A stretch of 32,591 bases of DNA. Source: Fidelibacterota bacterium. Its GTDB lineage: Bacteria > Fidelibacterota > UBA8477 > JABMPR01. Shown in pieces: positions 6,440 through 29,268 of this stretch. Position numbers and translations under genes: made by a program. Numbering within the stretch: the stretch's first letter is position 1; each line of letters opens with the position of its first letter. The notes beneath the pieces were generated by a model. It worked only from the letters and a program-made list of their open reading frames with translations, was not told where the DNA came from and made no database searches. The DNA is taken from assembly GCA_021736185.1 (NCBI GenBank), contig JAIPGJ010000019.1, forward strand, positions 1-32,591. Direction: 5' to 3'.

Positions 6440-6457
6440 AAGGAGGATACAAGCATA
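6440..6457 (+). promoter_or_regulatory. Perfect Shine-Dalgarno followed by an ATA codon (non-canonical start)
   Basis: AAGGAGGAT spans 6440-6448. The AGGAGG core ends at 6446, and eight bases later comes ATA (6455-6457), in frame with the long downstream ORF. No ATG, GTG or TTG occurs in any frame within normal distance of this ribosome-binding site. A TATGAT hexamer at 6411-6416 could be the -10 of a promoter, but its -35 is not clear. Confidence 0.6.
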
Positions 6458-9400
6458 ATAAGTTCATTTTTCAATCCTGCTGAGACAAAAAGGGATCAGT
6501 CGCTGCACCAGGATGCAGAAGCCTGCAGTCAGGCCCTCCTCACGGTGAGATCCACTGTAATTCAGCAGTGGATTGATGCTTTTCGTGATCTCCTTCAAGC
6601 CCATCAGGAACTGGATCAGACCAGCAAAAATGCATTGGAAGATCAACTCAAGGGGGAGTTTAAATTTCCAGTTTTGCTGGAGCAGCTTGAGAGCACCATC
6701 CCGCAGTATTTAAAATTAGCTAAAAATCTGCCAAATGTTGAAACTAACTATGATCCTAAAAGCCTATTACAGGCCTGGGATGACCAATACAACGAAGCTA
6801 TCAAAGGTGTTTCACGACAATTCAGTGTGTCTATTCCGCATAAGCATCTTCAGACGCTAGACACTGATTCGACTCAAATAAAAATCTGGAAATCCGCACA
6901 AAGAACAAGACTTAGGAGTTGGGAGCTGATTGTTTCCACTCAGAACCAGTTTAGAAGAATCCTGAAAAAAAAGCAACTTGGCAAACCAAAATTTAAGCGC
7001 CGGATAGCCTATCGTGATTATTTGGATGCAATGATCCACTTGCCTGTAACTGAACGACTCCAGAAAATCTGGGACCATTTCGTTGTAGGAATGGCTGAAA
7101 ACATCATTTTACTGCATGAACGTACTTTGAGTCATCTCTATAATCTTATGCTGCTCCAGGAGCAGCATCGCGTACTCAAAAAAAAGGAATTAAATGAGGT
7201 CCTCAATCAACTGCGGGAGATTCGTGATAATTGGGATGGCTTGTCTGAATTCATTCAAAACATAGATGCCCTTGAAAAGGACATAGATGATCAACTGGAA
7301 GACATTCAGATTGCCATATCCAAAGAGATGGCCTCAAACTGGGTGTTTATTGGCACCTGGCTGCATCCCAACCTACTGAACCACCACCCCCGAATTGAAA
7401 ATAGATTGAGAAGAAATAAAAAAAGGCTGGAAAAGTCATGCCATAACTGGCTGCTCTATTTTGAAGGGGAAAAGGAGGATCGTCATATAGATCTGGAGCT
7501 GGGTTTGCTCCAGACTCAAATTTCACTAAGACTCCTGGCTGGCCTGCAGGCCATTCGGGACCAAATCACGCACCAGATCCTCCCCGCCTTTGTTAACCCC
7601 CATCAGGTCATTAATGATGCCTTGAAAAGGTTTCGTGAGTTCGAGTCCAGTACTGAAAGCAAATTGAAGCGGAGTATCGCCAGTGAAAATCGTCAATTAT
7701 TACGAAATCTTCGTCGAGAACTCCTGCCTCGGATTTTAGACAGTCTGTTACAAGCAAGATTGTCTGAACGCCTGAATAGTTTGAACTCTCAGGTCAAATA
7801 CCTGATGGACCAACTGCCGGAGAGTCATCGAATATTCAGGGGACAACGACTGTCAAACGGGAAACCATCCACTCGTTTTATGGATATTGAAATCAAGGCT
7901 CTGGCACTGGGCGAAGTGTACCCCAAGTTATCTGAGCAATTTGAAGCTTTCAGCGATAGTATAAATGACCAAACGGATAAGTTGGGTCGCGATGTCACCG
8001 AGATTGATCAAATTATTGAATTTAATCTGGGTGCAGCGCTTGAATTGCTTTCTGATGAAGAACATCAAGGCGCTACTGATGGAGCCTACACTGTAGTTGT
8101 TGAGGGATTGGAGCGTACCCGCGGACAATTGGGTTTATTGATTGAAGAGAGTCAACATATTCAAATGCTCTGTCAGGAGACCCTACCCTTAATTTCTCAA
8201 AATGCGGGTCTAAGTCTGAAAGAACTGGCAGATAACGAGAAAGTTATTCAGCTACAGATTCGTGTAACCAGGACCAAACTAAAACAGAAGCTGCTTTCTT
8301 TCCGTTTTCGAGTGTTGGAAATGCTGCGCTCTCTATGGCCTCATATCAGATCCAATATTGCCAGTGCATATCATGCCATGCTTGGCTGGTATCGCCGTAT
8401 ACGCAAGATCACCGGGCTCGCTACCGTCCCAACCGATATTGATAAGCAGCTGAATCTCTACCTATCCGGTACTCGCAGACAGATTGATGCGCTGCCATTT
8501 GTCTATCAGCGCCTGTTTAGATTTGAACCGGCTGTGGATGAGCGATTTTTTATTGGACGGGAGCAGGAATTACTCCAAATCCAGAAAAATTATAGTGATT
8601 TCAAAATCGGAAGTCATTCATCAACAGCTATTGTAGGTGAAAGCGGCAGTGGTCGCACCAGTCTACTGAACATGGCTGAAACCAAGTATTTAAGCGCTAC
8701 TACCAGCTACAGAATCAATCTATCTGCCTCTATTCATACTATTCCAGAATTATGCAGCATTCTCAGTGAAGGTCTTAATCAACCGAAGATCAATACGATA
8801 GAAGAAATTGCTGACTATCTAAACCAGAAACCGACCCAGGTGGTCTTTATTGTCGAGAATATTCAGAATATGTTCCTGCGCTATCCCGGTGGTTTCGAGG
8901 CAATAAAACGATTCCTGCTGCTCATGAACGAAACAGCCAAGCATGTTTTCTGGATCGTATCGTGCGGCTTATATAGTTGGGCTTATTTTGAACGTATCAT
9001 TAAAATTGGTGGCTTTTTCCAGGAGATCATTAAGCTTCAGGAATTGGATAACGATACCATTGAAAATGTCATTATGAAACGGCACCGGGTCAGTGGATAT
9101 CAGCTAGAATTTAAAATCCCGGAATCCATGGTCAGGAATCGACGATTCAAAGCTTTCAGTACTGATCACGAACGGCAGGATATGTTAAGAAAATACTTCT
9201 TTGAAGAATTAAACCGATTGGCAGCAGGGAATTTAACTGTGGCCATCATATTTTGGTTAAAAGCAGTGCAGGAAATAAAATCCGACCGATTCATTATTGC
9301 GCCATTCATAGAATTTGATCCGACCTTTCTGGCCCATATGCCTGCTCAGGATCTTTTTTCTTTTGCTGCCTTCTTACAGCATGAAGTTCTTACCATAGAG

Positions 9401-9565
9401 GATCATGCAAGAGTATTTCATCAAGATTACGAAACCAGCCTGCTGCAAATATCACGACTTGAGAAAAACGGGATGCTGGTGAGAAAATCAGGAGGATATC
9501 AAATACATTATCTCCTCTATCGTCCCGTCGTAAAAACCCTAATTCTTCATAACATTATTCACTAG
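6455..9565 (+). CDS. Large helical protein with C-terminal P-loop ATPase and winged helix, partner of MscS
   Basis: With the proposed ATA start the protein has 1036 residues; the first standard start in frame is GTG 6545 (1006 residues), which lacks a ribosome-binding site. About the first 670 residues are charged, helical and coiled-coil-like with no transmembrane segment. The ATPase module follows, with FIGREQELLQIQ leading to Walker A GESGSGRTS (residues 728-736) and a Walker B-like VVFIVEN (Glu801). This resembles the AAA/Orc-STAND class. The last 90 residues look like a winged helix (a basic and hydrophobic ...RLEKNGMLVRKSGGYQIH... pattern). It is cytosolic. The MscS gene begins 6 bases after its stop, so the two probably work together, with the ATPase as a possible gate or sensor. 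No known family name could be assigned. Confidence 0.85.
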   Translation: MISSFFNPAETKRDQSLHQDAEACSQALLTVRSTVIQQWIDAFRDLLQAHQELDQTSKNALEDQLKGEFKFPVLLEQLESTIPQYLKLAKNLPNVETNYDPKSLLQAWDDQYNEAIKGVSRQFSVSIPHKHLQTLDTDSTQIKIWKSAQRTRLRSWELIVSTQNQFRRILKKKQLGKPKFKRRIAYRDYLDAMIHLPVTERLQKIWDHFVVGMAENIILLHERTLSHLYNLMLLQEQHRVLKKKELNEVLNQLREIRDNWDGLSEFIQNIDALEKDIDDQLEDIQIAISKEMASNWVFIGTWLHPNLLNHHPRIENRLRRNKKRLEKSCHNWLLYFEGEKEDRHIDLELGLLQTQISLRLLAGLQAIRDQITHQILPAFVNPHQVINDALKRFREFESSTESKLKRSIASENRQLLRNLRRELLPRILDSLLQARLSERLNSLNSQVKYLMDQLPESHRIFRGQRLSNGKPSTRFMDIEIKALALGEVYPKLSEQFEAFSDSINDQTDKLGRDVTEIDQIIEFNLGAALELLSDEEHQGATDGAYTVVVEGLERTRGQLGLLIEESQHIQMLCQETLPLISQNAGLSLKELADNEKVIQLQIRVTRTKLKQKLLSFRFRVLEMLRSLWPHIRSNIASAYHAMLGWYRRIRKITGLATVPTDIDKQLNLYLSGTRRQIDALPFVYQRLFRFEPAVDERFFIGREQELLQIQKNYSDFKIGSHSSTAIVGESGSGRTSLLNMAETKYLSATTSYRINLSASIHTIPELCSILSEGLNQPKINTIEEIADYLNQKPTQVVFIVENIQNMFLRYPGGFEAIKRFLLLMNETAKHVFWIVSCGLYSWAYFERIIKIGGFFQEIIKLQELDNDTIENVIMKRHRVSGYQLEFKIPESMVRNRRFKAFSTDHERQDMLRKYFFEELNRLAAGNLTVAIIFWLKAVQEIKSDRFIIAPFIEFDPTFLAHMPAQDLFSFAAFLQHEVLTIEDHARVFHQDYETSLLQISRLEKNGMLVRKSGGYQIHYLLYRPVVKTLILHNIIH

Positions 9566-9571
9566 AAAACC

Positions 9572-10528
9572 ATGAATTATCAACTAAAAATAGTCACTGC
9601 TCTGCTCCTGTTCTTTGGTTTCACCACGACGCTTATTTCACAATTGAACCCGGGACCAAGTATACCTGACAGCGTCTCGGTCGCTGCAGAGAGCGTTTCC
9701 ATATCCGAAACCTCACCTATAGCCGTGAACCTTGCCCAGCCCGAATGGTCAATTACCAGGGATAAAGTCATCTGGGCTATACTTGTGGCACTTATCGGCT
9801 TCGCTCTTATCAAATACCTCTCCCGACTGCTTGAGCGTCTGGGTGAGCGGTGGATCAAATTTCGCTTAACCATCAAGGGACTGGTTCCCATACTGAGAAT
9901 TGCGGGCTGGATCATCATATTATACATCATCATTGTGGACCTTCTGGCTCCCCCCATAGCCACCATTGTGGCATTGACTGCATCTGCTGGAATCGCAGTG
10001 GGCTTTGCCTCCCAGGATATTCTCAAGAATATCTTTGGCGGCATCATGATTTTGTTTGATCGACCCTTTCAAGTGGGAGATAAAATTCAGGTCGGTAGTC
10101 ACTATGGCGAAGTAGTTGGAATCGGCATGCGCACGGTTCGCATCACGTCTCCTGATGATAGTCTGGTATCCATCCCCAATAGTGAAATCGTGAACACCTC
10201 TGTCAGTAATTCAAACTCTGGAGAACATTATTGCCAGGTTGTTTCAGAAGTATACCTGCAACCAGATGTTGACCTGACAGCGGTTCGCAAGCTGGCTTAT
10301 GAGGCGGCAGCTATGTCACAATACATCTATTTAAATAAACCGATTCAGATCATTATTAAGAATGAAATTCATCAGGGACAATCGTTACTCAAATTGAGAT
10401 TAAAGGCTTATGTCCTGGACATCAGGTATGAGTTTGCCTTTGCCAGTCAAATGACGGAAATTTTACTCGGCCAACTCTCGCAAGCCCAATTGCCCTTTAC
10501 GCCTACTGAAATTCCCCACAACAAATAA
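9572..10528 (+). CDS. MscS-family mechanosensitive channel paired with an ATPase
   Basis: This is a 318-residue small-conductance channel. A signal-like hydrophobic N-terminus (1-24) is followed by a Ser/Val-rich, probably periplasmic stretch to about residue 60. Membrane helices then lie near 66-84 and 105-126. The pore helix (about 130-157) has ATIVALTASAGIAVGFASQD, and the signature FGGIMILFDRPFQVGD leads into the beta domain, with SIPNSEIVN. A C-terminal alpha/beta domain completes the fold. The Cys and His residues show no pattern. No Shine-Dalgarno is visible, so translation is probably coupled to the ATPase gene six bases upstream. The channel is shorter than MscK-type proteins and has no fused sensor domain; the separate ATPase may supply that role (inference). 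Confidence 0.93.
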   Translation: MNYQLKIVTALLLFFGFTTTLISQLNPGPSIPDSVSVAAESVSISETSPIAVNLAQPEWSITRDKVIWAILVALIGFALIKYLSRLLERLGERWIKFRLTIKGLVPILRIAGWIIILYIIIVDLLAPPIATIVALTASAGIAVGFASQDILKNIFGGIMILFDRPFQVGDKIQVGSHYGEVVGIGMRTVRITSPDDSLVSIPNSEIVNTSVSNSNSGEHYCQVVSEVYLQPDVDLTAVRKLAYEAAAMSQYIYLNKPIQIIIKNEIHQGQSLLKLRLKAYVLDIRYEFAFASQMTEILLGQLSQAQLPFTPTEIPHNK

Positions 10529-10609: not shown

Positions 10610-12394
10610 TTAAAAGGCATAACCCATGCTAAAATTAAATCGGACTCGGTCATTCACAGGGATATTGCCCACGGGGAAACCGATATCAACCCGAACCACG
10701 CCGATGGGGGTATTGTAGTGAAACCCCACACCGTAGTCCACAGCCCATTTCCCCTTGGATATGTCATGATAATCCCACCACACATTGCCAATATCTGAAA
10801 AGGTGGCAATACTGAAATCCTTATATACAGGTATACGCAGCTCAAAGACATTCCAGATCAATTTATAAAATCCACCTTTGGCATTATTATTTAAGTCATG
10901 AGGACCCACTTCACGATAGGCGTAACCTCTTAGGGAACTGGGTCCACCTGAATAGAATCTTTCCTGCAGCGAAATGGTTAAATTACCGGATAAACTAGTG
11001 ACAAATCCGGCTTCAATGGCAGAACCAAAAACCGAATTGTCCAGAACTGGTTTAAACCAACGAGCTTTGAATATGGATCTATAAAAACTGTTAGAGCTAG
11101 TCACCGGTCCACCCGCCACTTCGTTTTCCCATTCGATGAGACTCCCTTGCTTGGGATTGAACAGGTTATTGCGGGTATCGCGAGATAGTCTCAGCTTAAG
11201 ACTATGAACATCGTCGGTCCCCTCCCCACTCAAAGTATCCAGTTTTACATTTGAAAGCTGATTGAATTCATCCCTAAGGCTAAAAGTTACTGAAATGAAT
11301 TGATCGAGTTGTCTCTGCACTGCAAGACCCCAGGCATAGGACTCTAAATCATAAACCGGTTGAAATTGCAAATCATATTTTAGTGAGGCGTCCATGCGCC
11401 AGAATGAATCTCGAATTCTAGGGTTTGTATGCGATAGTACTATGAGGCGTTGAATATGAGAGATCTGTCCAGTCAGACCGATTTTTTTGGCGGTTCCTTT
11501 TACATTGTTTTGAGTAAATTCGGATTTGGCACGAAGTCCTTCAACCGACCCGTAGCCAAAAGAAATATTGAATGCTCCTGCTTGATTTTCCTTCAGGCCG
11601 ATCACCAGGTCCTGTTTGGCTGTATCCTGTAAAGCCTGGTTAATTTCCGGGTCGATAAATACGGATTCGAAAAGACCCGTAAGGTACAGGTTTCTTTGAC
11701 TTTTTAAGATTTTGGAGTAGCTGACAATTTCTCCAGGCTTGAGTGTGACCTCACGAATCACAACTCCAGGTATGGTTTTCTCAAGGCCTTTGATTCGAAT
11801 GTCACCGACCCGGTATTGCTGCCCTGCATCAATATCAAAATCCAGAATGGCATGGAGCGCCCAGGAGTCCAGGCTCCATGATGGCTTGACTTCTGCTTCG
11901 AGATACCCGCGATCTGCATAATATCGCAGCATGGTCAACTGAGCTTTCTCGATCACATCAGCGTCAAAGGGATCATTGTCTTTTATTCCGCTAACCATGA
12001 CCAGGATCGAATCAGGTATCGAGGTGTTGCCAAGATAGCTAATCGCATCAATGACTGTTCGCTCCCCTTCCTCCAGCGTCAGCTGTATATTTACACGCAT
12101 TTTAGCGGAATCCCTGAGCACATTGTAATCAGGGATATCCATTTTTAAGAAGCCTCGTCGTTGATAGAAATTTTTAAGTCCATCGAGATCATCCACAAAG
12201 ATGTCTTCATTATAAATCACCGGGAAAAACAAGCGCGATGGCCTTGACATGATAACCTTATGCAGGGCATCATCCTTATATGTTTTATTCCCGGTAAATT
12301 CTACCTTATGAATTTTAAATTGATTTTTGTTCTTGGGAAGAATAAGAACCGGTAAACTTAGAGTGAGGAGGAGAACGATCAGAACCTGTCTCAT
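10610..12394 (-). CDS. tamA: TamA/BamA-family (Omp85) outer-membrane assembly protein
   Basis: This is a 594-residue Omp85 protein. It has a signal peptide (MRQVLIVLLLTLSLPVLILP), about three POTRA domains (residues 25-265; for example VEFTGNKTY at the start of the first), and a 16-strand barrel. The L6 signature GGPSSLRGY lies near residue 483, and the chain ends in Phe. TamA works with TamB to insert or secrete a subset of outer-membrane proteins. The frame opens at ATG 12406, but ATG 12394 forms a classic ATGA overlap with the tamB stop and begins the signal peptide, so I use it. Its length and POTRA number fit TamA better than BamA. Confidence 0.88.
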   Translation of the reverse strand: MRQVLIVLLLTLSLPVLILPKNKNQFKIHKVEFTGNKTYKDDALHKVIMSRPSRLFFPVIYNEDIFVDDLDGLKNFYQRRGFLKMDIPDYNVLRDSAKMRVNIQLTLEEGERTVIDAISYLGNTSIPDSILVMVSGIKDNDPFDADVIEKAQLTMLRYYADRGYLEAEVKPSWSLDSWALHAILDFDIDAGQQYRVGDIRIKGLEKTIPGVVIREVTLKPGEIVSYSKILKSQRNLYLTGLFESVFIDPEINQALQDTAKQDLVIGLKENQAGAFNISFGYGSVEGLRAKSEFTQNNVKGTAKKIGLTGQISHIQRLIVLSHTNPRIRDSFWRMDASLKYDLQFQPVYDLESYAWGLAVQRQLDQFISVTFSLRDEFNQLSNVKLDTLSGEGTDDVHSLKLRLSRDTRNNLFNPKQGSLIEWENEVAGGPVTSSNSFYRSIFKARWFKPVLDNSVFGSAIEAGFVTSLSGNLTISLQERFYSGGPSSLRGYAYREVGPHDLNNNAKGGFYKLIWNVFELRIPVYKDFSIATFSDIGNVWWDYHDISKGKWAVDYGVGFHYNTPIGVVRVDIGFPVGNIPVNDRVRFNFSMGYAF

Positions 12395-15300
12395 TTGAAT
12401 TTCCATCCAAATTTTAAATCGAGACCTGAACGACCCTTTTGATCCGTTTGCCCTTCGATTGAAACACCTTCAATCAATTCATATTCCAGCTTCACATTTT
12501 GTGTGGTTGCCTGCCCCACGGAGGTGCTGTAAGTGAGGGTCGTTTTTTCACCAACTTTCTTTGAAGCAACCAATTCCGGACCCCAGGAGGAACCAAAATT
12601 GAACAAATCCCCCTCAATTGAAATATTGTCCAGATTCATAAAGGTGCCAATTCTATCTGCTGTATAAGCAGATATTTTTTGAGAACTATAGTCAGACAAA
12701 CGATCCTGAAGAATTTTTCCAATCTTTGCATTATCCATGTTAGGGTTTGATTGACTGAGTTCCTGTCTCGTTGCACCCATGGTTAAAAGCGTTAAAATAT
12801 CCGTTCGATCCAGGGCTGGTTCCGAGCGAAGGACAAAATCTGCCTTATCCATAGGGCCCGTCAGATCGATATAGATGGTGTACTCTTTTTTTGATCGAGT
12901 TTGATATGGTTTGAGCTGTGTTTTTGCGTGGAGATCGACTATAGGATTGAGCTCATATTGATTCTGAAAATCCAGAGTGGCTGCAGTCACTTCAAAGTGT
13001 CGATCAAGATACAGTATATATCCTTCTTGAATTTTCATTCGACCCGTGGGAATCGGCTGGGCCAAAGTGCCCAAAATGGTTAAATCTGTTTTTAAGCGTA
13101 CATGGGCAAGATTATTCTGAATGGAAAGCTGGTCACTTTCATCAATTTTAAAATTGATTTTTGTTTGAGTTAATATTTTTGGAGGACTGGTTTTTGGTTT
13201 CCCCGAGGTGCTTGCCATTTTGAGAATATCTTTCGGGGTGATCCTTTGCTGAATGCTGACTGATCCTAATTTAGCTCCACCCTTTAAGATATATTTTTCA
13301 TCCTGACCACTGTAAGTCAGGTTTATATCGTTTATTTGCCCCTTGATGACATTGGCTTCCTTGAGCTTGATCTGAGAGGCCAGCATTCTCATATCAAACC
13401 TGGGGAGCTGGTTAGCAAAATATTCAAACTCTCCCGCTAAAAATATACGGCCATTTTTTCCCTGTCTGAAGGAGAGAGAATCCAGACGTATTTTTTGATC
13501 CTGGAAATGAGCAACAATTTTTCCCTGACTTAGCTCTGGGTCAAAATAGGGCAAATCCATGGCCAGGTCATTTGCATAGATGTCTCCATTTATTTGCGGT
13601 AGTTCAGGGCTTCCCTTGATAAATAAATTGCCCCTTACTTCCCCCGATAGTTTCTCTAATGTAGGAAATAATGGGCGCCAGGCAGAAAGATTCATGGTGG
13701 GAATTTCCACATTCAGATCGAGACTCGTGGTGGAGAAATATCCTTTGAGCGTGAGCGATCTTACACCGGCAATTTCAATAAACTGGTCAATTTTAAACTG
13801 ATCCCACTGAGTGTGCTCCATGTAACCTTGAGATGAGAAAGGAATATTGTCCAGATTTCCTTTAAGTCGTTTAATATCAATCCGATTAGGCAAAATAAAT
13901 ACGCCCAATTCTATGTCCTGAATCGCAGGTAGATCACTGCTTAGTCGAACCAGACCTTTTGAAACCGACATATTTCCACGCACATCCCGGTTACCGCTCA
14001 AATCTTTCACCCCCAATTTTCCATTTGCGACACCCTGTATTTCCTGCCCCGCTTCAAGAAAATAGTTGGCGATGCTCATATCAGCATTTTCCAGCTGAAC
14101 TCCAGCAGCACTAACACCACTCGTAATTTGATAGCTGAGATGTACCTTCCCCTGTAATCCAGCGTCCAGGTCCAATTTTAAGAAATAGCTATCCGGATTG
14201 TAGATATCTGCTTGCCCACTGATGGCTAAGTTGCGTGAGTCTATGGCTAGATCAATTTTCTTTAGATACACACTCTGACTGTCAAACTCCGCAGTGATGT
14301 TTTCTAAAAACATTTGAGGGAAACCCGGGTAATCCATCTGTATGTCTTTCAGGTCAAGTTTTCCATAGAAATGTGGGGCAGTCAAATTTCCTTTGATGCT
14401 GAGAGAACTATTTCCAAAACCTGAAATGGAGACATTTTCTGGAAGAAAAGTTTGCAGTCTGATTAAGTCAAAATTATTGGTTTGAATGTTTGCTGTAAGG
14501 GGACTGTGATTGCGAATAGTCCTGGTGTGCAAATCGATGGGCAATCCCATAGCCACAAATAAGCGTTCAGATTTATGCTCAATGAATAGCGTGTCAAGTT
14601 TGATCCAATTGGAATCCACATAGGCGGACAGGCGGATTGACTGAAAATTCTGATCCTGGAAGGTGATATCAGTGCCATTCAGACGCAGCTTGCCCCATTC
14701 CAATGTAGACCCCAGCTTGGCTGTTAAATCAAAGTTGAGCAAACCGGAGAATTGATTATAGTCAGTTGGCAAATACTTGAGGAGACTCAGATCAAAGCTC
14801 TTGCCCTTCAGTTTGACGGACGAACCCTTATCTGATTGATGGGCCTGAACTGACAGGCTTCCCTGAGACAGCCAATTGGAATCTTCACGATTTTCAACCA
14901 AAAGCACCATGTCCGCATCCATGCGCCGCCAGTTAGCTGCGCCACTGGCCAGAACCCGTTGATCATTGAGGTAGCCTGAGACATTTATCACCTTGATCAC
15001 ATCCGGTTCAACGTATAAACTGACAAATGCTGAATCCACTGAAAGGGAATCGACCTGAAGCGATCTAATATAGAGATTCGCATTCCCAGTCAATTGATCC
15101 AGGGTTCCTTTTACTGATGCCTGGTAAGTGGCGCGCCCGGATAAGATCGGAGCTTCAATAAATCGATTCACCACGGCCAGATCGCTCTGATAAGAGCTAA
15201 TTTCACCATCCAGTATAGTCCAGTCCTGATCTATTCCTTTGACCCTGAAATGTGTTTTATCGATGTGAACTCCCTGGTATTCCAGCGCAGTTCCCCGGAG

Positions 15301-16788
15301 ATCCGCCTTATAGATAAAACTCTCGTTTGCATATCTCACTTCGGCGGATCCCACCAGCTTGCCTGATAATCCTACAGCAGGTGTATAAGACATGATGGGT
15401 GCCAAATCCGGGAGATTGTAGGTGAGCTTGGCTTGATAATGCTCCAGCGAGTCCAGCGAGGCGCTTACATGAAGTTGATTTTGCCCCTGATTAAAACTCA
15501 GCGACGCCTGGCCCTGGTCAAGACTTGCATATAGGGTTGTGCTTTTGATAGGCTTCCCCAGCCAGGAAGCCTGAGAAATATCAAAAGTTGCCTTCATGTT
15601 GACATTCTGAATTTCCAGCAATTGCCCGTTTCCATGGAATTCGCCCTTTACAATGCCTGTATAATCATCACCACTTCCATAATATTCCGCCAGACTTGCT
15701 TCAATGGGAGTGGCTGGCAATTTTCCTGAGATGGCAAAGCTACTCAGGCTGTCAAAGGCAAAATACCCCCTACCTTGCAGTGGAGTTTTGAGGATAACCA
15801 CATCAAATGTATCGATGGTCACCTGCTCCGTCGTGACTAAACCTGCCAGGATTCCATCTACCCGTGGATAATCATTTAGAATTAAAGCATCACATTTGAC
15901 CGTAAAACTCACTTCGGGGGCTACAATGAGCTTATCCATCAATATCTCTGCATCAAAAAGACCGGAAGGAAGGGGTAATTCCACACCCATCAGAGTTGAA
16001 ATTGGTTTCAATAAGGGCGTTGGTGAGCCCTTGAAACTGACAGTGCTATGGTCCGTCCAGGTATAATCACTCAGGATAATCCCCAGATTAGCCCGCAAAT
16101 CAAAGTCGGGATGAATCATGGAGAAGCTCTTCATAATGAATTTAGTATTCGTAAGTGAGCCGGATGCATTTATTGGAGCGATCCTGGGTTCAGGCATACT
16201 CTCGTCCAGCCAGCCGACTGATATTTCATATTGAAATTGCCCTGATTCAGGTTCTGTGACATCCATATTTACTGAGGGGAATATAAGTGAGAGGCCACTC
16301 TGCCTGTCTCCGATATCTACATAGGTATCAGCTATATGTATTTTTTGTACCTCAAGGGACCAGTCTGAGCCAGTACTGTTATCAGAAGGGGTCAGGAGAC
16401 TCCCCAGGAGCCAATTCCCGCTCGTATCCGTTCGCATTTGCAGCTGCACGCCACTGACATCCACTGCGGAGATTATGATACGTTTGATTAACAAACCTGA
16501 TAGATCATATCGTATTCGGAGTTCATCGATTTCGATCCTGGTGGTGTCTTCAAATTCGACACTTTCGAGCGCGAGACCTGCCAGGCGAATCTGGCTAAAA
16601 ATATCCAAGCTTAACGAGTCAATATCTGTCTGAATATGAAGTTCTGATTTAATCCATCGGGAAAGATAATTTTTTAGATAATTCTCACCATCTGCACTGG
16701 TCAGCCATAACAGGAGGACGGTCACACCAATCGATAGGATGACGACGATTCCCCCCAGCAGGGAAAGTGCTTTTTGAACTCGACTCAA
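12391..16788 (-). CDS. tamB: TamB-like translocation/assembly module protein (DUF490/AsmA-like)
   Basis: This 1465-residue protein has an N-terminal membrane anchor (about residues 9-30), a very long stretch of AsmA/TamB-type repeating beta strands, and a C-terminal TamB_C (DUF490) region. The TamB_C region is marked by PTGRMKIQEGYILYLDRHF, IYIDLTGPMDKADFVLRS and the LTLLTMG segment. TamB spans the periplasm as a hydrophobic groove and docks on TamA; recent work also links the family to lipid transport. It overlaps tamA by 4 bases. The only upstream start available is TTG (16788) with no obvious Shine-Dalgarno, just after an in-frame TAG. A weak start may keep its level low. Gene order here is tamB then tamA, the reverse of the usual proteobacterial operon. 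Confidence 0.88.
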   Translation of the reverse strand: MSRVQKALSLLGGIVVILSIGVTVLLLWLTSADGENYLKNYLSRWIKSELHIQTDIDSLSLDIFSQIRLAGLALESVEFEDTTRIEIDELRIRYDLSGLLIKRIIISAVDVSGVQLQMRTDTSGNWLLGSLLTPSDNSTGSDWSLEVQKIHIADTYVDIGDRQSGLSLIFPSVNMDVTEPESGQFQYEISVGWLDESMPEPRIAPINASGSLTNTKFIMKSFSMIHPDFDLRANLGIILSDYTWTDHSTVSFKGSPTPLLKPISTLMGVELPLPSGLFDAEILMDKLIVAPEVSFTVKCDALILNDYPRVDGILAGLVTTEQVTIDTFDVVILKTPLQGRGYFAFDSLSSFAISGKLPATPIEASLAEYYGSGDDYTGIVKGEFHGNGQLLEIQNVNMKATFDISQASWLGKPIKSTTLYASLDQGQASLSFNQGQNQLHVSASLDSLEHYQAKLTYNLPDLAPIMSYTPAVGLSGKLVGSAEVRYANESFIYKADLRGTALEYQGVHIDKTHFRVKGIDQDWTILDGEISSYQSDLAVVNRFIEAPILSGRATYQASVKGTLDQLTGNANLYIRSLQVDSLSVDSAFVSLYVEPDVIKVINVSGYLNDQRVLASGAANWRRMDADMVLLVENREDSNWLSQGSLSVQAHQSDKGSSVKLKGKSFDLSLLKYLPTDYNQFSGLLNFDLTAKLGSTLEWGKLRLNGTDITFQDQNFQSIRLSAYVDSNWIKLDTLFIEHKSERLFVAMGLPIDLHTRTIRNHSPLTANIQTNNFDLIRLQTFLPENVSISGFGNSSLSIKGNLTAPHFYGKLDLKDIQMDYPGFPQMFLENITAEFDSQSVYLKKIDLAIDSRNLAISGQADIYNPDSYFLKLDLDAGLQGKVHLSYQITSGVSAAGVQLENADMSIANYFLEAGQEIQGVANGKLGVKDLSGNRDVRGNMSVSKGLVRLSSDLPAIQDIELGVFILPNRIDIKRLKGNLDNIPFSSQGYMEHTQWDQFKIDQFIEIAGVRSLTLKGYFSTTSLDLNVEIPTMNLSAWRPLFPTLEKLSGEVRGNLFIKGSPELPQINGDIYANDLAMDLPYFDPELSQGKIVAHFQDQKIRLDSLSFRQGKNGRIFLAGEFEYFANQLPRFDMRMLASQIKLKEANVIKGQINDINLTYSGQDEKYILKGGAKLGSVSIQQRITPKDILKMASTSGKPKTSPPKILTQTKINFKIDESDQLSIQNNLAHVRLKTDLTILGTLAQPIPTGRMKIQEGYILYLDRHFEVTAATLDFQNQYELNPIVDLHAKTQLKPYQTRSKKEYTIYIDLTGPMDKADFVLRSEPALDRTDILTLLTMGATRQELSQSNPNMDNAKIGKILQDRLSDYSSQKISAYTADRIGTFMNLDNISIEGDLFNFGSSWGPELVASKKVGEKTTLTYSTSVGQATTQNVKLEYELIEGVSIEGQTDQKGRSGLDLKFGWKFK

Positions 16789-18533: not shown

Positions 18534-19217
18534 TTAAGTTGAAGCAAAGATCAAGTGACCAAAATAATTTGGCAAATGGAAATTCAAAACGGGCAGAACC
18601 GTCCATGAAGCCCAGTGTGGATGTGACGTTTGATCCCCACATTTAAAGAAATTACCGCGCCATTCTCCAAGGTCAATTGATGGACCCAAATAGGACTTCA
18701 TAATTGAAAACGGGATAAAGAATTCAAGATACCAGGTTAGCGCTTTTGAGGAGTCAGGGTCATGAATGTCCTTCAGGGAGTGATATCTTTGTATTGAAAG
18801 ATCATCCTCATGCCTCAGTTCTGTATATTCCTTCAATTTTCCATCAATTTTTGTGGGATCAGTGATGTAGGATGCCTTTAATATTCCCAAACAGTTAAAC
18901 TCAAAGTTGAAATACCCCCGGCCAGATTGGGGCTCCAGAAAAATTTCGACACAGCTGTCTTTATAGACATCAGATTGAAATTCAGTATGAACACACCTGA
19001 TGAATTGATCCTCAACTCTAAATATCCCATATAAACCCTTGGAATTATATTGCAATTTACACTGGCTTTGGGGTCGATGGTTACTCCCTTCAGGTCGATA
19101 ATTGGCAATATCCAAAGGTGTTATAGTACGCCATGCGGGCCCCTCCCACAATCCACCCATTTCAGGCTCGACTTTGCTTTTAAAAATGGTGTAACTCGGC
19201 ACTTCAGCTTCACTCAT
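18534..19217 (-). CDS. Carbohydrate-binding module family 9-like protein
   Basis: This 227-residue protein resembles the CBM9-like/DOMON-type beta-sandwich proteins common in polysaccharide loci. It has a W.....PAWRTITPLDIANYRP opening, CVEIFLEP with an Asp/Ser-Cys strand near residue 90, the YFNFEFNCLG strand, and a late LGEWRGNFFKCGD...HWASWTVLP segment. No signal peptide is visible, which is odd for a partner of exported enzymes; it may act in the cytoplasm or be exported by other means. Its ATG overlaps the stop of the preceding gene (ATGA), so they are translationally coupled. It is the last gene of the glycan locus. Confidence 0.75.
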   Translation of the reverse strand: MSEAEVPSYTIFKSKVEPEMGGLWEGPAWRTITPLDIANYRPEGSNHRPQSQCKLQYNSKGLYGIFRVEDQFIRCVHTEFQSDVYKDSCVEIFLEPQSGRGYFNFEFNCLGILKASYITDPTKIDGKLKEYTELRHEDDLSIQRYHSLKDIHDPDSSKALTWYLEFFIPFSIMKSYLGPSIDLGEWRGNFFKCGDQTSHPHWASWTVLPVLNFHLPNYFGHLIFAST

Positions 19218-20563
19218 TCCAGATGGGCCTCATATTCGATGACTTGGCCCGGGACCAACTTATCACATTCGATGGTGAGCACTGGAGCGGTTCCACCTGA
19301 GAGAATTTCAAGATCGAGGGTATCCCCTGCTGTTAAATATTTCAGGGACTCATCTGCTCTGACACCATTCACTGTGGGATAGGCATCGTAATAAATAGGA
19401 GCCACCCCAACATTGGTGATACTTAATTTTGATGAATCAGGATTGGCGCTGAATGCGGTTATTTTGAAGTGATAGCCTGAGGCTTTGCTGGCCTCTTTGA
19501 TCCGGGATTCAGTTTGATATCCAGGCTGGTCGTTGCCAAACATATAGCTGATGTGAAAATCCTGAGCCCATTGCTCGTAGGAAGTACCATGTGCGCCTGT
19601 GACGGGGTTTAAAACATTCTGCTGGTCATAACTGGTGTAATAACTGAACTCTCCCCCGGCAGGTGAATACCTGTAGCGTTCACGATCAAAGAAATTCCAG
19701 TTCCCAAGATTCCAACTGGCATGATTCTCATGCATAAAGGAGTCATCAAACACGCCAAAGGGAATATCCAATAATTCGGTCTGTTGCGAAAAAGGTGAAT
19801 AGGTTGGATCGGCGGCATCAATTGAGATACTCCAGGGCACATGTTCCCAGACCGCATCCATTTGGTGAAAGAACTCGGCCTGAAAGGCCTTACTGGGGAA
19901 GGTCCCTCCCAGTGTAAATGGACCATCATAGATATGATATTCAGCCCAGAGACCGAAACCAACTTGAACAAAAGCCAAACGAGGATCATTATCATATTCT
20001 TGGGCAAAGCGTTCTTGAAATTCCAGGGTGAAGCGTTTCAACTCTGGATGTGACCAGTCAGGGAAATGGGTGGTGCGACCTTCAGAGAGTCCCGCTGTTT
20101 CGGTGTAATCATCAATACTCTTAATGTAATCTGGTACCGAAGTCTGATAACCTGGGTAGACAAATCTGAAGCGAAAGATGGCCTGATGTCCTCTAGAGGC
20201 CACTGCATTTAATTTGGCTTCAACCGGACCCCAATCATAGACACCGCTATCCTGAACGATGGCATTAAACAACATATATGAGAATTCCAGGGAGATAGCC
20301 TCGGAATTGGAGTGGCTACAGGTGGTCCAGTAGACTATCCCCGTCATGGGTTGTACATTTTCGATTGAATCCAGGAGTGGAATATTGAACCATATGGATG
20401 AGGAATCTGCAGTTGTGTCAGGTGGTGCAGTCGTGGTGTCGGAAGGGTTGGTCAGTGTGTCGTTGGGATCGACACGGACAAGAGTCTCCTCCTCTGGACC
20501 TAGACAGGCCATCACCAGGAATAACCCAGGCATGATCAGATGGAACAGGCGATTATTATTCAC
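19214..20563 (-). CDS. Lipoprotein with DUF4832/GH-A-like barrel domain, putative glycan hydrolase
   Basis: This 449-residue exported lipoprotein (lipobox VMAC, Cys20) has a low-complexity Thr/Asp/Pro linker (about 30-56) that holds the domain away from the membrane. The catalytic-type part shows a clan GH-A look: DSGVYDWGPVEAKL near 105-118 and VGFGLWAEYHIYDG near 201-214, where Glu208 takes the place of the GEWH glutamate of the upstream paralogue-like protein. A C-terminal beta domain (about 365-449) follows. The frame opens at a TTG touching a GAGAG; GTG at 20563 sits at proper distance from that site and gives a good signal peptide. Enzyme activity is inference only. Confidence 0.72.
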   Translation of the reverse strand: MNNNRLFHLIMPGLFLVMACLGPEEETLVRVDPNDTLTNPSDTTTAPPDTTADSSSIWFNIPLLDSIENVQPMTGIVYWTTCSHSNSEAISLEFSYMLFNAIVQDSGVYDWGPVEAKLNAVASRGHQAIFRFRFVYPGYQTSVPDYIKSIDDYTETAGLSEGRTTHFPDWSHPELKRFTLEFQERFAQEYDNDPRLAFVQVGFGLWAEYHIYDGPFTLGGTFPSKAFQAEFFHQMDAVWEHVPWSISIDAADPTYSPFSQQTELLDIPFGVFDDSFMHENHASWNLGNWNFFDRERYRYSPAGGEFSYYTSYDQQNVLNPVTGAHGTSYEQWAQDFHISYMFGNDQPGYQTESRIKEASKASGYHFKITAFSANPDSSKLSITNVGVAPIYYDAYPTVNGVRADESLKYLTAGDTLDLEILSGGTAPVLTIECDKLVPGQVIEYEAHLE

Positions 20564-20682
20564 TTGGAGCAACTCTCTTTTCTATTCATGGTCTGCTAGA
20601 TCAACCACTCATTTTCTGGGTAGTGTCGGCAAACTCATGGACCACTATGTGGCTGGAGCATCTCTTAGGCAGGATTGTTATC

Positions 20683-20721
20683 TTGGTGGTTCGTTCCCCA
20701 TGATAGGGAACGAACCACCAA
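20683..20721. repeat. Perfect 16-bp inverted repeat (hairpin) between two lipoprotein genes
   Basis: TTGGTGGTTCGTTCCC (20683-20698) is repeated as its exact reverse complement at 20706-20721, separated by a 7-base loop. It lies in the 182-base gap inside the glycan operon. No U-run follows on either strand, so it is not a standard intrinsic terminator. An intercistronic mRNA-stabilising hairpin, an attenuator or a REP/MITE-like element are all possible. Confidence 0.85.
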
Positions 20722-20745
20722 TGATCGGTCATCTCATATCCAGCA

Positions 20746-22125
20746 TTAATTCACTGTGAGCGCCGGTATGAGGATGTTTACGCCTTTTTCGGCATTCCAG
20801 ACATCTTTGTTGGCAAAGCGTATGGCGTAGCGGACATCATCATGAATACTGGGTGACAGGTCTGGCATACGAATTCCAAGGGAATATTTACCGGGAGCCA
20901 GATTCTCTGGTATGGGTATGGTTGATTTTACTTCAACTTCAGATCCTGCACCCCAAAATCTTGGATCATCTGGCAATTCCGTGACCAGCTCTTCACCCGA
21001 CTCCAAGTTGGTGAGAACCATCTCAACCCGTCGTGGATTAAATAGCTCACCAAATCCTACATTCGCCAGTGCAAACATAAAGTTCAATGGCTGACCTGCT
21101 TTGACGGAGGACTGTATTAACGAATTACGTAAAACAAAACGATAGCCTAGGCGACGTTCAATTTCATCATAACATCCACCTTCCTGCCAGCCCTTGATCA
21201 CACCTCGGTGATAATCACGGTTTATCCAGTTGATGTGGACTTTCTCCATTTCCTTGACAGCATTTTCACAGCCAGCCCGTTCATGAATTCCACAAGTTTC
21301 ACCACCAAAGGGTACATAGCGGGATTCTGCTTCAATAAAATTCAATTCTTCGCCCAAAGTCCAACCATCTTCACCATAGGGATAGGTACCCACATCATTT
21401 TCTGACGCGAGGAAACAATCATTTAGATGACCTACACGAGCCAGGTTTGAGCCATCAAAGGCTCGCTCACGTGTGAGAACAGAATCGCCAAACAATGGGT
21501 TTCCAGTAAAAATATGACGTTTGTAATGAGGTGTACGGATAACAACCATTCGATCTTTGGGTACTTCATCAAGAATTCCAAAAAGAATCTGTTTTTTGTA
21601 GTGGATGCTATCCAGCCCATTGGCTGAACTATGCCATTCACCCCAACCACCGATAAAACCAGCTTCGACATGATTGATCACATCTTTATTCTTGCGCCAT
21701 AACGGCCCCATTTGCTTGATATGCGTCATCACAATATCAATGGGTGCATCGTCGCCATAAACAGCCTTGGCACCCTCATGATGTCCATGATTGTAGGCAA
21801 CACGCGGGTTCACTTTAATCCCATTTTCACGTGCCAGATCAAACCCCTTTTGAATGTCTTGAAGAAACTCTTCGCTGAACGGTCTGTCACGAAATTTATC
21901 GGCAGAAATCCGACCATAAATGAGAGTAATATTCTCATTCCGTATGTCGAAGTTTTGTGGTCTTGGTAGTTCACGCGCATGATGGAATCCCCGTTCAGGA
22001 TTGGGGAATGCATCCATCGATTCCTCGTAGGTGATAGCTGACACTCCAGCTGTTGGACGACAGGCGATGAAGACACTGAAAAGTGCCACGACCAGGATAA
22101 TCCGTATCAAAATTGTCTTACTCAT
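20746..22125 (-). CDS. DUF4874/DUF4832 family lipoprotein, putative glycan-active enzyme
   Basis: This 459-residue exported lipoprotein (signal peptide with lipobox FIAC, Cys22) opens its mature part with FPNPERGFHH (40-49), the hallmark of the DUF4874 N-terminal domain. A TIM-barrel-like core follows, with AGFIGGWGEWH (Glu163), a HINWINRDYH segment and an RLGYRFVL segment typical of DUF4832. A C-terminal beta-sandwich resembling sugar-enzyme accessory domains ends the chain. The frame opens at TTG 22146, but ATG 22125 has a perfect AGGAG six bases upstream and starts the signal peptide. It overlaps the preceding gene by 8 bases. The family has no established activity that I know of. Confidence 0.85.
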   Translation of the reverse strand: MSKTILIRIILVVALFSVFIACRPTAGVSAITYEESMDAFPNPERGFHHARELPRPQNFDIRNENITLIYGRISADKFRDRPFSEEFLQDIQKGFDLARENGIKVNPRVAYNHGHHEGAKAVYGDDAPIDIVMTHIKQMGPLWRKNKDVINHVEAGFIGGWGEWHSSANGLDSIHYKKQILFGILDEVPKDRMVVIRTPHYKRHIFTGNPLFGDSVLTRERAFDGSNLARVGHLNDCFLASENDVGTYPYGEDGWTLGEELNFIEAESRYVPFGGETCGIHERAGCENAVKEMEKVHINWINRDYHRGVIKGWQEGGCYDEIERRLGYRFVLRNSLIQSSVKAGQPLNFMFALANVGFGELFNPRRVEMVLTNLESGEELVTELPDDPRFWGAGSEVEVKSTIPIPENLAPGKYSLGIRMPDLSPSIHDDVRYAIRFANKDVWNAEKGVNILIPALTVN

Positions 22126-22834
22126 GCTTTTCTCCTGTTGGTTCAATAAATGTGACTTTTAACTCTTTAAGGACTTTATCAGCCGTTGTATAGCCCTGGA
22201 TATCAGGCAGTATGTCCGGGATGGCCACCATTTGTTCCGTACGACCCACAAGCTGAGCAGTATCGGACCAGCCACTTACTGCTCGGACTATTCCAGAGTA
22301 GATTAATGAAGGTTGACCATTCCCATCCGGGTCTGGAGTACCATTTGATTTACTTGCTTTAAATGTTTCGTTATAGTCGCCAGAGACATTCAGCTCGAGG
22401 TAGTAGCGCCATTCAGAATCTGGATCCACCGTAGCATATACTTTAAGATTTTCCTTTGGTGTAGCCCCGGTAATGCCATCTGGCAGGGGTCTTAGAAACG
22501 AAGGGATTCCCCCATTGCTTTCAATATCCCTTCTGGATATCCAATGGGGCAGTGCAGTGGGACAGACCACTTTTCCTACCCAAACTCCCCGGGCCAGTCG
22601 ACTGGAGACCCAGAGCGTTTTCACCTGGCTGCCATCCATGCTTTCAATCCACAATGCCATTTGTGGTGGTTCGCCAAAATTGCTCAAGCGATACATCTCT
22701 TTATTCAATTGAAGTTCAAACTGAATATTGGCTTGATCAGGGTTCTGCCAGGCAGGAATTTCTGTCGTTTTGCTGCCGCAAGCAACCATCACGAAGATAA
22801 AAGGAATGAATAGATAATGAAGGCCTCTATACAT
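22118..22834 (-). CDS. DUF2271-like periplasmic lipoprotein
   Basis: This 238-residue lipoprotein (lipobox MVAC, Cys19) has a mature region showing the pattern of DUF2271 'predicted periplasmic protein' sequences: MALWIESMDGSQVKTLWV, then PDGITGATPK, then a strand region of the YYLELNVSGDYNE type. A second beta-rich part follows, giving a compact all-beta fold. The frame extends upstream to 22915, but ATG 22834 begins a proper signal peptide and overlaps the GH109 gene end by 8 bases; the Shine-Dalgarno is weak, so it is likely coupled. DUF2271 proteins elsewhere sit with flavin or redox export genes, so the role here is uncertain. Confidence 0.7.
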   Translation of the reverse strand: MYRGLHYLFIPFIFVMVACGSKTTEIPAWQNPDQANIQFELQLNKEMYRLSNFGEPPQMALWIESMDGSQVKTLWVSSRLARGVWVGKVVCPTALPHWISRRDIESNGGIPSFLRPLPDGITGATPKENLKVYATVDPDSEWRYYLELNVSGDYNETFKASKSNGTPDPDGNGQPSLIYSGIVRAVSGWSDTAQLVGRTEQMVAIPDILPDIQGYTTADKVLKELKVTFIEPTGEKHE

Positions 22835-24206
22835 GGATGATACCCAGTGGTTTTCGTGTTTTCCACTGACCTCGGGTAAAATCTGGAAAATCAATAGTCT
22901 GGGATCGATTGGCAACTGACATTTCAGTTAAGTTGGATACAACAGACCAATCTGCAGCTTCATAAACATCCATATCCGTGGGCAATCCGTTGCGTAGGCA
23001 ATAGATGAGTCGATAATCCTCGATAAAATCCGCACCACCATGTCCGGCACCATCAGCGAGGTCTTCCATTTGAGAAATCAGGGGATGTTTGTAGGTGTTG
23101 GCATAATTCATCAGCGGTTCCCAGCTGTGTGACTGACTCAAGCCCTCTACGTGGACCAGATTGGCATGTGTAGCGTCTCTAAAGCCCTGGGTAATACCTT
23201 TGGTCCCCTGCACCAGATTAATACGGCTATAAGGCCGTGGTAGATTAGTATCTTGTACCAGATAAATGGTCTTACCCTGCACCGTTCGCAGCATTGAAAT
23301 ATTGATGTCCCCGCAATTGAATTTTGTTTTTGAGAATTCATGATCAGGACCGAGATGTTCATTGGCATATTCATGGAGACCCCGGGCATTGGAACTCATG
23401 GAAACCAGATAATCAAAACGATCTCCGCGACTGATGTTCATACATTGTGCAATCGGCCCCAGGCCATGGGTGGGATAGAGATTCCCATTGCGAGCGATGA
23501 CCTCATGTGTCCACCAGTCTCCCTCATAGGCACTCCCCAACAAATTATTGCGCATATCATGACTATAGGCACCCTCCCCGTGGAGGAGCTCTCCAAAGAC
23601 GCCCTGCTGAACCATATTGTATATCATCATCTCTGGTTCCATGTAACACACATTTTCCATCATCACGCAATGCTTATTGTATTTTTCGGCAGTTTCCACC
23701 ATCTCCCAGCATGCTTCAATAGTTGGTGCAGCGGGCACTTCAGTGGCTGCGTGACTCCCATTCTTCATGGCTTCGACCATCACCGGTACATGCCAGTTCC
23801 ATGGTGTCGCTGCAAAAACCAGATCCAGGTCCTCTTCAGCGCACATGCGTTTGAAGTCTGTTTCACCCTGATAATATCCTTTGGGAGCAGGCTTCCCTGC
23901 TTTTGTGGCCCATTCCTGCATGCGCTTGACTTTGTCTTCTACGAGATCGCAGACTGCAACGATTTCCACACCCTCTATGCGCAGGAAGTTTTGAAAATGA
24001 GCCGAGCCCATGTTGCCCACACCAACAATACCCAAGCGGACATTATCAATGGGACCCACTTTGGCAGCACCGGGTTGCGTGGTGATTTCTTTGGCACAGC
24101 TGGATAAGGCTGCTCCAGCCAGAGCAGTTCCAATTCCTACAGCACTACCAAGACGGATAAAATCTCGTCTGCTGAGCCCAGAACTGTCTGATTTTGGATG
24201 ATCCAT
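22827..24206 (-). CDS. Tat-exported Gfo/Idh/MocA protein of glycoside hydrolase family 109 type
   Basis: This 459-residue protein has a twin-arginine signal (LSRRDFIRLG, 11-20) and a possible lipobox LSSC. The NAD-binding Rossmann motif GVGNMG (62-67) leads a Gfo/Idh/MocA fold. Stretches match what I remember of GH109 alpha-N-acetylgalactosaminidases: TPWNWHVPVMVEAMKNG, EVPAAPTIEACWE, MMENVCY, QGVFGELLHGE, NLYPTHGLGP and ISRGDRFDYLVSM. GH109 enzymes use a redox mechanism with bound NAD, which explains Tat export of the folded cofactor-loaded protein. A GGGAG lies upstream of ATG. It is the first enzyme gene after the ROK repressor, 74 bases downstream. A plain oxidoreductase role cannot be ruled out. 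Confidence 0.87.
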   Translation of the reverse strand: MDHPKSDSSGLSRRDFIRLGSAVGIGTALAGAALSSCAKEITTQPGAAKVGPIDNVRLGIVGVGNMGSAHFQNFLRIEGVEIVAVCDLVEDKVKRMQEWATKAGKPAPKGYYQGETDFKRMCAEEDLDLVFAATPWNWHVPVMVEAMKNGSHAATEVPAAPTIEACWEMVETAEKYNKHCVMMENVCYMEPEMMIYNMVQQGVFGELLHGEGAYSHDMRNNLLGSAYEGDWWTHEVIARNGNLYPTHGLGPIAQCMNISRGDRFDYLVSMSSNARGLHEYANEHLGPDHEFSKTKFNCGDINISMLRTVQGKTIYLVQDTNLPRPYSRINLVQGTKGITQGFRDATHANLVHVEGLSQSHSWEPLMNYANTYKHPLISQMEDLADGAGHGGADFIEDYRLIYCLRNGLPTDMDVYEAADWSVVSNLTEMSVANRSQTIDFPDFTRGQWKTRKPLGIIHV

Positions 24207-24280
24207 ACTTTATCTCTCCCTGAAAGGATAGCTTCTTTTATTGAAACCCGTTACAATTGAGAATAAAAAAACACACCTGC

Positions 24281-25516
24281 CTATGCTTCTGCGCAGACAA
24301 TCTTTTCAATGACGAGACCGGCGGCCCCCAGTAGATTTGAGGCGTCACCCAGGTCAGATTGCACAATGACAACATCTTCAGCAATTTTAGGATTGGTATA
24401 CTGGGTGATACATTTTTCCAGTGAATTCGTGATGAGACGTCCAGCGTGGGAATGCTTGCCGCCCAGAATGATCATTTTTGGATTTAATATTTGCATAACT
24501 ATGGCCAGACAGCGACCAATGGATTCGCCTGATTCCTGTAATAGACGAATGGAAAATTCGTCTCCTTCCTTGGCAACATTCACAATTTTCCGGGCTGTAA
24601 TCTGACTCAAATCATCAGCATAATCATAGGCGAGTAATGATTTTTCTCCATTTTTGAGACGCTGGATGGCAATACGGCTAATGGCTTCACCGGATGCGAC
24701 GGTTTCTAAACAGCCATATTTGCCGCAGTGGCAGGGTACTCCATCAGGATCAACCTGGATGTGACCAAATTCCCCGGCAAATCCATTACCGCCCATATAA
24801 ACTTCATTATTGAGTATAAAGCCCATGCCAATCCCCCACCCCAGATTGATGATCAGGGCGTCACCAGCATTTTTAGCGAGTCCGAAGTGGTGTTCAGCAT
24901 GAGCCATTAGATTAACATCATTTGCAATCACCACAGGCAGACCAAAGGTCTCAGACAGGGTGATACTAATTGGTTTATCAAAATAATTGAGGAATGAATA
25001 ACTAATCCCGCTCTCGGAATCCACGAAACCCGGAATCCCCACCCCTAAACCCAGAATATTTTTCATTGAAACACCGGTCTCTTCCAACATGGAGAAAACA
25101 CTTTCCTTAAGCAGTGGAATGAATCCGTTGTCGCCTTTAAATACAGGACTTCTGAAATTTCGATGAGCCAGAATTTCTCGTCCAAGATTCATGATTGCCA
25201 GTTTGGTGTTGAGGCGACCTGAATCCACGCATAAGATGTAGCCAGCCTGTGGATTGAGATGATACTGGGCAGATCTTCTACCACCAGAGGAGCGACTTTC
25301 ATCATGAACAAGAACCACATTTTCCTGTTGTAACTCTTCGATAAGCTTAGCTGCAGTTGGAAAGGTAATTTTGAGAAGCTCAGCTAATTCCTTCAATGTT
25401 GCCGAACTTTCATAGAACAAGTATTTTACAATTTCTTTTTTTCTTGGGGTGGCTATTAGCTGCAATGCCTCACTCCTATCATCACTCGTGGTATTCCCTG
25501 GCTGTGCTACGTCCAT
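24281..25516 (-). CDS. ROK-family transcriptional repressor (NagC/Mlc/XylR type)
   Basis: This 411-residue regulator has an N-terminal winged HTH (about residues 25-80: RKKEIVKYLF, then LKELAELLKITFPTAAKLIEEL) and a sugar-kinase-like ROK domain. The ROK domain shows DSG (98-100), IPGFVD, NDVN (199-202) and the ROK signature with a zinc site: GEFGH (His252) and CHCGKYGC (Cys262, 264, 269). NagC/Mlc-type proteins release DNA when they bind a sugar or amino-sugar. The gene leads the glycan locus, so it probably controls it and itself. GAGG lies 7 bases before ATG. An AT-rich palindrome and promoter lie upstream. Confidence 0.92.
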   Translation of the reverse strand: MDVAQPGNTTSDDRSEALQLIATPRKKEIVKYLFYESSATLKELAELLKITFPTAAKLIEELQQENVVLVHDESRSSGGRRSAQYHLNPQAGYILCVDSGRLNTKLAIMNLGREILAHRNFRSPVFKGDNGFIPLLKESVFSMLEETGVSMKNILGLGVGIPGFVDSESGISYSFLNYFDKPISITLSETFGLPVVIANDVNLMAHAEHHFGLAKNAGDALIINLGWGIGMGFILNNEVYMGGNGFAGEFGHIQVDPDGVPCHCGKYGCLETVASGEAISRIAIQRLKNGEKSLLAYDYADDLSQITARKIVNVAKEGDEFSIRLLQESGESIGRCLAIVMQILNPKMIILGGKHSHAGRLITNSLEKCITQYTNPKIAEDVVIVQSDLGDASNLLGAAGLVIEKIVCAEA

Positions 25517-29140: not shown

Positions 29141-29175
29141 CGGTACTCCTGGAGTTATTGCGTTGCTTAAACATT

Positions 29176-29207
29176 GCGGAGAACCAGGGTCTACCCTGAT
29201 TCTCCGC
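29176..29207 (-). terminator. Long GC-rich hairpin after the giant repeat gene, probable terminator or mRNA end
   Basis: GCGGAGAA.CAGGGT pairs with ACCCTG.TTCTCCGC (15 positions each side, one mismatch, 2-base centre). It lies about 60 bases after the stop codon at 29269 on the minus strand. No strong U-run follows, so it may act as a 3' stabiliser or processing site rather than an intrinsic terminator. Confidence 0.5.
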
Positions 29208-29268
29208 GAATCTCACATCAATTTATTGATCCTCATACATCCTGGGATCAATGCTTGAAACATTCGAG

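Follow-up and report, generated by a model that had tools for sequence, protein, structure and literature searches.

The window, a stretch of 32,591 nucleotides that forms one contig (C45) of a 2.74 Mb genome (89% complete, 161 contigs), carries a two-gene unit on the plus strand, flanked by two blocks of opposite orientation (Table 1). The product of the first gene consists of about 650 helical residues, a STAND/ORC-like P-loop NTPase and a winged-helix-like domain, in that order, and has no transmembrane segment by hydropathy. The second gene encodes an MscS-type channel. Both open frames, and the 6-bp gap that separates them, had been called in an earlier sequence-only reading and were confirmed.

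Table 1. Features of the two-gene unit in the window, and architectures and partners of its homologues.
Feature	Location	Strand	Evidence
Ribosome-binding site AGGAGG	6442..6447	+	Sequence; 7 bases 5' of ATA at 6455
Putative NTPase switch protein	6455..9565	+	Frame and translation; Pfam; hydropathy; homologue alignments
P-loop NTPase core, STAND/ORC kind, residues ~688-895	8516..9139	+	Pfam nSTAND1, AAA_22; alignment
Winged-helix-like C-terminal domain, residues ~966-1036	9350..9562	+	Secondary structure; best pLDDT of model; Foldseek
Partner MscS-type channel, 318 aa	9572..10528	+	Pfam; PDB alignment; hydropathy; pore-helix alignment; clade in tree
Type A, helical arm + NTPase (window type)	G000, G056, G060, G728; G803 and G006 cut by contig ends		
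Type B, SLC12 + helical arm + NTPase, 1707-1724 aa	G020, G021, G022, G221, G060, G725, G728, G670, G784, G956 (G956 placed from the C-terminal 850 aa of a 1720-aa frame; its helical arm matches type B)		
Type C, membrane segments at the N-terminus, a signal-like start and coil in some	G671, G685, G951, G533 (cut)		
Type D, NTPase + winged helix alone, ~400 aa	G689, G659		
Type B MscS-like partners without glycine/alanine-rich pore helix	L016 5517-6269, L017 6460-7212, L018 12052-12786, L028 7031-7771, L029 10908-11552		

The 1036 residues given for the first protein in the sequence-only reading hold if the ATA at 6455 is the start codon; from the GTG at 6545, the earliest standard start codon of the frame, the protein has 1006 residues. 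A start near 6455 is favoured because the ribosome-binding site lies just ahead of it and because part of the additional N-terminal stretch can be aligned to a homologue (locus L013, 31% identity overall), T11, D14, D20, A23, L29 and T30 being identical within residues 11-30. The true start is probably near 6455, either as a rare ATA start or as an ATG turned into ATA by an assembly error.

Alignment places four motifs in order along the NTPase core: FIGREQEL, Walker A GESGSGRT, Walker B VVFIVENIQ and IxxxIMKRHRVSG. Residues 684-895 match Pfam nSTAND1 (E 1.5e-7, 31.9 bits against a cut-off of 27.1) and the protein also matches AAA_22 (E 1.8e-7, over its cut-off); the homologues at loci L009 and L013 score under the nSTAND1 cut-off. 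The Walker A lysine (motif at 8636-8659) is replaced by arginine, as it is in the G056 homologue, whereas most relatives keep the lysine (GKT or GKS). The Walker B acid pair is E-N (VEN), so that the window protein lacks the intact Walker A lysine and Walker B acid pair of STAND NTPases. The earlier label of ATPase was right as to the presence of an NTPase domain and too strong as a name, because of the arginine in the P-loop and the E-N pair. With this arginine and the weak Walker B motif, nucleotide binding with little hydrolysis is the likelier behaviour, and binding-driven switching would be more plausible than vigorous hydrolysis.

Structure models of the protein were built from a two-row alignment and are poor (pLDDT 50 and 39). 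In a low-confidence model, residues ~1-650 are predicted to be nearly all helical. The C-terminal domain, with the order helix-helix-helix-strand-strand-helix, reaches pLDDT 70-85 within a model of residues 643-1036 that averages pLDDT 50. Foldseek with the NTPase model ranked Cdc6/ORC at the top with plant NLRs among the next matches; this ranking serves as a hint only, because the model is of low confidence and TM-scores are near 0.3. A single-sequence search of solved structures gave no match for the NTPase, and a profile search of the same structures matched it at the P-loop level and the winged-helix level only. Thus, of the STAND, Orc/Cdc6 and AAA families that had been suggested for comparison, nSTAND1 and AAA_22 were matched over their cut-offs and ORC/Cdc6 appeared only as a Foldseek hint.

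The partner channel contains the MscS beta domain (Pfam MS_channel_2nd, E 2e-22) and has a signal-like helix at its N-terminus. Its alignment with the MscS structure 7dlu spans residues 64-286, which shows that it has the usual cytosolic part of an MscS; only an extra regulatory domain is missing, and the earlier description of an MscS lacking its own regulatory domain is accurate in that sense. The pore helix TM3 is canonical and rich in glycine and alanine (ALTASAGIAVGFASQDILKNIFGG). By its domains the partner is a standard MscS, for which mechanosensitive conductance is predicted.

We searched ~950 genomes for homologues of the NTPase domain, comprising all 245 available genomes of the window's phylum and a sampling, at phylum, class and order level, around a relative recorded as 'Proteobacteria bacterium'; two phyla were thus sampled, and the order-level searches largely re-sampled the same genomes and added 2 loci. 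The NTPase domain was found at 22 loci in 20 genomes from at least two phyla. At all 22 loci an MscS-family gene directly adjoins the NTPase gene on the same strand, which supports the proposal of a switch NTPase dedicated to a membrane channel. The distance to the first plausible start of the second gene is that of translational coupling, usually -1, -4 or a few bases and 19 bp at most, and at L059 the frames overlap. The NTPase gene comes first except at 2 loci of reversed order, which hold the stand-alone copies in G060 and G728. Since there are just 1 to 8 MscS-domain genes per genome (seven genomes counted), adjacency at 22/22 loci is beyond chance. The module is patchy: 2 of the 19 genomes of the window's genus have it, the window's own included. 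We found neither homologues that mostly stand without an MscS gene nor an unrelated family that the protein matches over its whole length, the two outcomes that the sequence-only reading had named as counting against the pair.

The partner MscS proteins of a test set of 20 loci were compared in a tree with the MscS paralogues of G000, G006, G020-G022 and G060. The partners separate from the MscS paralogues of the same genomes and fall into two groups: those of types A, C and D cluster across phyla with weak support (0.54), and the type B partners make up the other (support 1.0). The node that unites both groups has a support of 0.77. Type B, and likewise the sub-groups within A, C and D, are clearly set apart from the paralogues; for all partners taken jointly the separation is less clear. 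Over the same 20 loci, NTPase and MscS tree distances are correlated (Mantel r 0.71 for all loci and, group by group, 0.82 and 0.93), values that are inflated by kinship among the loci; the observed r was reached by 0, 1 and 0 of 5000 permutations, respectively. The correlated divergence indicates that partners are not freely swapped. Type B partners keep the beta domain, and bulky residues replace the glycine/alanine pattern of their pore helix. With so degenerate a pore helix, the type B partner may not form an MscS-like pore and could instead serve as a structural or regulatory subunit, and channel gating is perhaps not the common function of all loci.

The part of the protein N-terminal to the NTPase varies among loci: it is absent (two loci), helical, membrane-anchored, or an SLC12 cation-chloride cotransporter (ten loci). 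In its minimal form the module consists of an NTPase of ~400 aa and an MscS (L058, L060), and this form marks out its core. Between types A and B the homology of the NTPase domains is clear (hhalign E 7e-38). It is weak between the helical arms of the stand-alone proteins and those of the SLC12 fusions (hhalign probability 85%, 148 columns, E 6e-6), and part of this likeness could be coiled-coil bias. Pfam AA_permease was matched by all three type B proteins tested and Pfam SLC12 by two of them. One type B protein was compared further by phmmer and matched KCC4 over the transmembrane and C-terminal domains (E 6e-77) as well as NKCC1. The Na+ site of NKCC1 is formed by A610, S613 and S614 (PMC7889885). 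TM8 of the tested type B protein reads A-T-I-S-S, and in our own alignment its A-x-x-S-S appears to have the spacing of that site. The window protein has no SLC12 part, and no AA_permease or SLC12 gene was found in the window's own MAG. Two NTPase homologues with other N-termini, at L057 (5154-8294) and L059 (5704-8301), start with a signal-like helix and membrane helices, and that of L057 additionally has a likely periplasmic coil. We take these N-terminal parts to resemble the N-terminal half of MscK, placed on a separate chain.

Our preferred reading, which we hold with a little more belief than doubt, is that the two genes form a conserved module for ion or osmotic homeostasis in which a STAND/ORC-like nucleotide switch docks on a dedicated MscS-type channel and sets its opening. 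The P-loop protein would change conformation with the bound nucleotide, would dock on the cytosolic face of the channel, and would thereby set whether, or at which tension, the channel opens. All parts of the module are able to meet in the cytosol. Because the NTPase, the winged helix and the MscS fold are constant and the variability lies ahead of the NTPase, the latter region may serve as the input, in the form of the cytosolic helical arm of the window protein, of a coil with membrane helices, or of a complete SLC12 cotransporter. The window switch would work by binding and release of nucleotide, reporting ATP level or strain on the arm, more likely than by steady hydrolysis. A role in salt and volume balance is favoured by the fusion to SLC12 salt cotransporters in type B, and of the functions suggested in the sequence-only reading it is the osmotic one that gains from this result. 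From these patterns we infer physical contact between NTPase and MscS, gating of the channel and its direction, the ligand and the physiological role. The poor structure models, the degenerate pore helix of the type B partners, the patchy occurrence within the genus and the lack of an SLC12 gene in the window's own MAG weigh against this reading. A bolder reading, which we offer tentatively and doubt somewhat more than we believe, is that the loci represent a hitherto undescribed family of MscS-type complexes under nucleotide control, whose switch would couple energy status or the sensing of cell volume to the channel and, in some lineages, to SLC12, as a bacterial unit of cell-volume control.

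The same data fit a protein that assembles or positions the channel complex, as a scaffold or AAA-like chaperone, and does not gate it. No other rival is as strong, above all for type B, where the degenerate pore helix of the partners is what would be expected of a structural subunit; strict pairing and coupling are explained just as well by an assembly factor or an obligate subunit, and the weak catalytic motifs agree with it. However, most members retain the nucleotide-binding motifs and the proposed input regions vary widely, a pattern that points to signal input more than to assembly, and we regard a pure assembly role as unlikely. A regulatory role of another kind is suggested by the winged helix C-terminal to the NTPase and by ORC/Cdc6 as the top fold matches, namely that of a STAND-type transcription regulator whose winged helix binds DNA and controls the channel operon. 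A winged helix is, however, an intrinsic part of STAND and ORC NTPases, and at ten loci this domain shares a chain with a 12-helix membrane transporter, at others with membrane segments; because types B and C thus hold it at the membrane, we disfavour a DNA-binding regulator, the least probable of the readings considered.

STAND NTPases are sensors in known defence systems, and the patchy occurrence of the module within the genus would suit a device in which such a sensor opens an MscS-type pore and so kills or arrests infected cells. Neither gene has a PADLOC match (the NTPase reaches E 0.046 at best and the MscS has no hit), ten neighbouring genes have none apart from a weak HTH match and a cysteine desulfurase, and searches of phages, plasmids and viral contigs gave no relatives. 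Fusion to complete SLC12 cotransporters is moreover not expected of a killing device. We consider defence very improbable, and this suggestion of the sequence-only reading was rejected.

No paper describing a system with this NTPase-MscS pair was found in the open-access literature, in keeping with the earlier impression that the pair is undescribed; each component belongs to a known family and the combination appears to be new. MscK and the bacterial cyclic-nucleotide-gated MscS-like channels are alike in the MscS pore and beta domain, in a presumed osmotic role and in having an attached regulatory part. They carry their regulator as a domain of the channel, whereas the regulator proposed for the window is a separate P-loop protein from the neighbouring gene. 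With STAND NTPases (nSTAND1; NLR and MalT kin) and ORC/Cdc6 the window protein has in common the GRExEL start, the P-loop and probably the C-terminal winged helix, but it has no known effector or repeat sensor, is dedicated to an MscS, and has a Walker A arginine and a weak Walker B motif. The potassium channels TrkH-TrkA and KtrB-KtrA likewise pair an ion pathway in the membrane with a nucleotide-binding regulator that is a separate cytosolic protein; their regulator is of the Rossmann/RCK kind in place of a STAND/ORC P-loop protein, and their channel fold is unrelated to MscS. The N-terminal half of the ten type B homologues belongs to the family of the SLC12 cotransporters KCC and NKCC; unlike those, the homologues continue for ~1000 further residues, made up of the helical arm and the NTPase, and an MscS-like gene comes next. 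SLC12 cotransporters control cell volume in animals, and the fusion would tie salt cotransport and a channel-type protein into one bacterial unit. For the question of what regulates MscS channels apart from membrane tension, a strictly co-encoded and co-diverging P-loop partner offers a directly testable candidate.

Four further groups of genes were noted in the window, all on the minus strand. Directly downstream of the MscS gene, and convergent with it, adjoining genes encode Omp85-family and TamB-like proteins (10610-16788). In the segment 3-3678, a second MscS gene near the contig end follows genes for a RimB-like aspartic peptidase, a RimK-type ligase with a TrkA_C domain at its C-terminus and an AspA/DoeB-like deacylase, and this group is possibly an operon for synthesis and release of a peptide or osmolyte with its own channel. 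An apparent carbohydrate-use cluster at 18534-25516 encodes CBM9-like and DUF4832/DUF4874 proteins, a GH109-type oxidoreductase and a ROK protein. At 25742-32553 lie the genes of two large secreted proteins that carry DUF5123/beta-helix repeats and end in Por-type sorting signals; one of the two has a calcineurin-like phosphoesterase domain.
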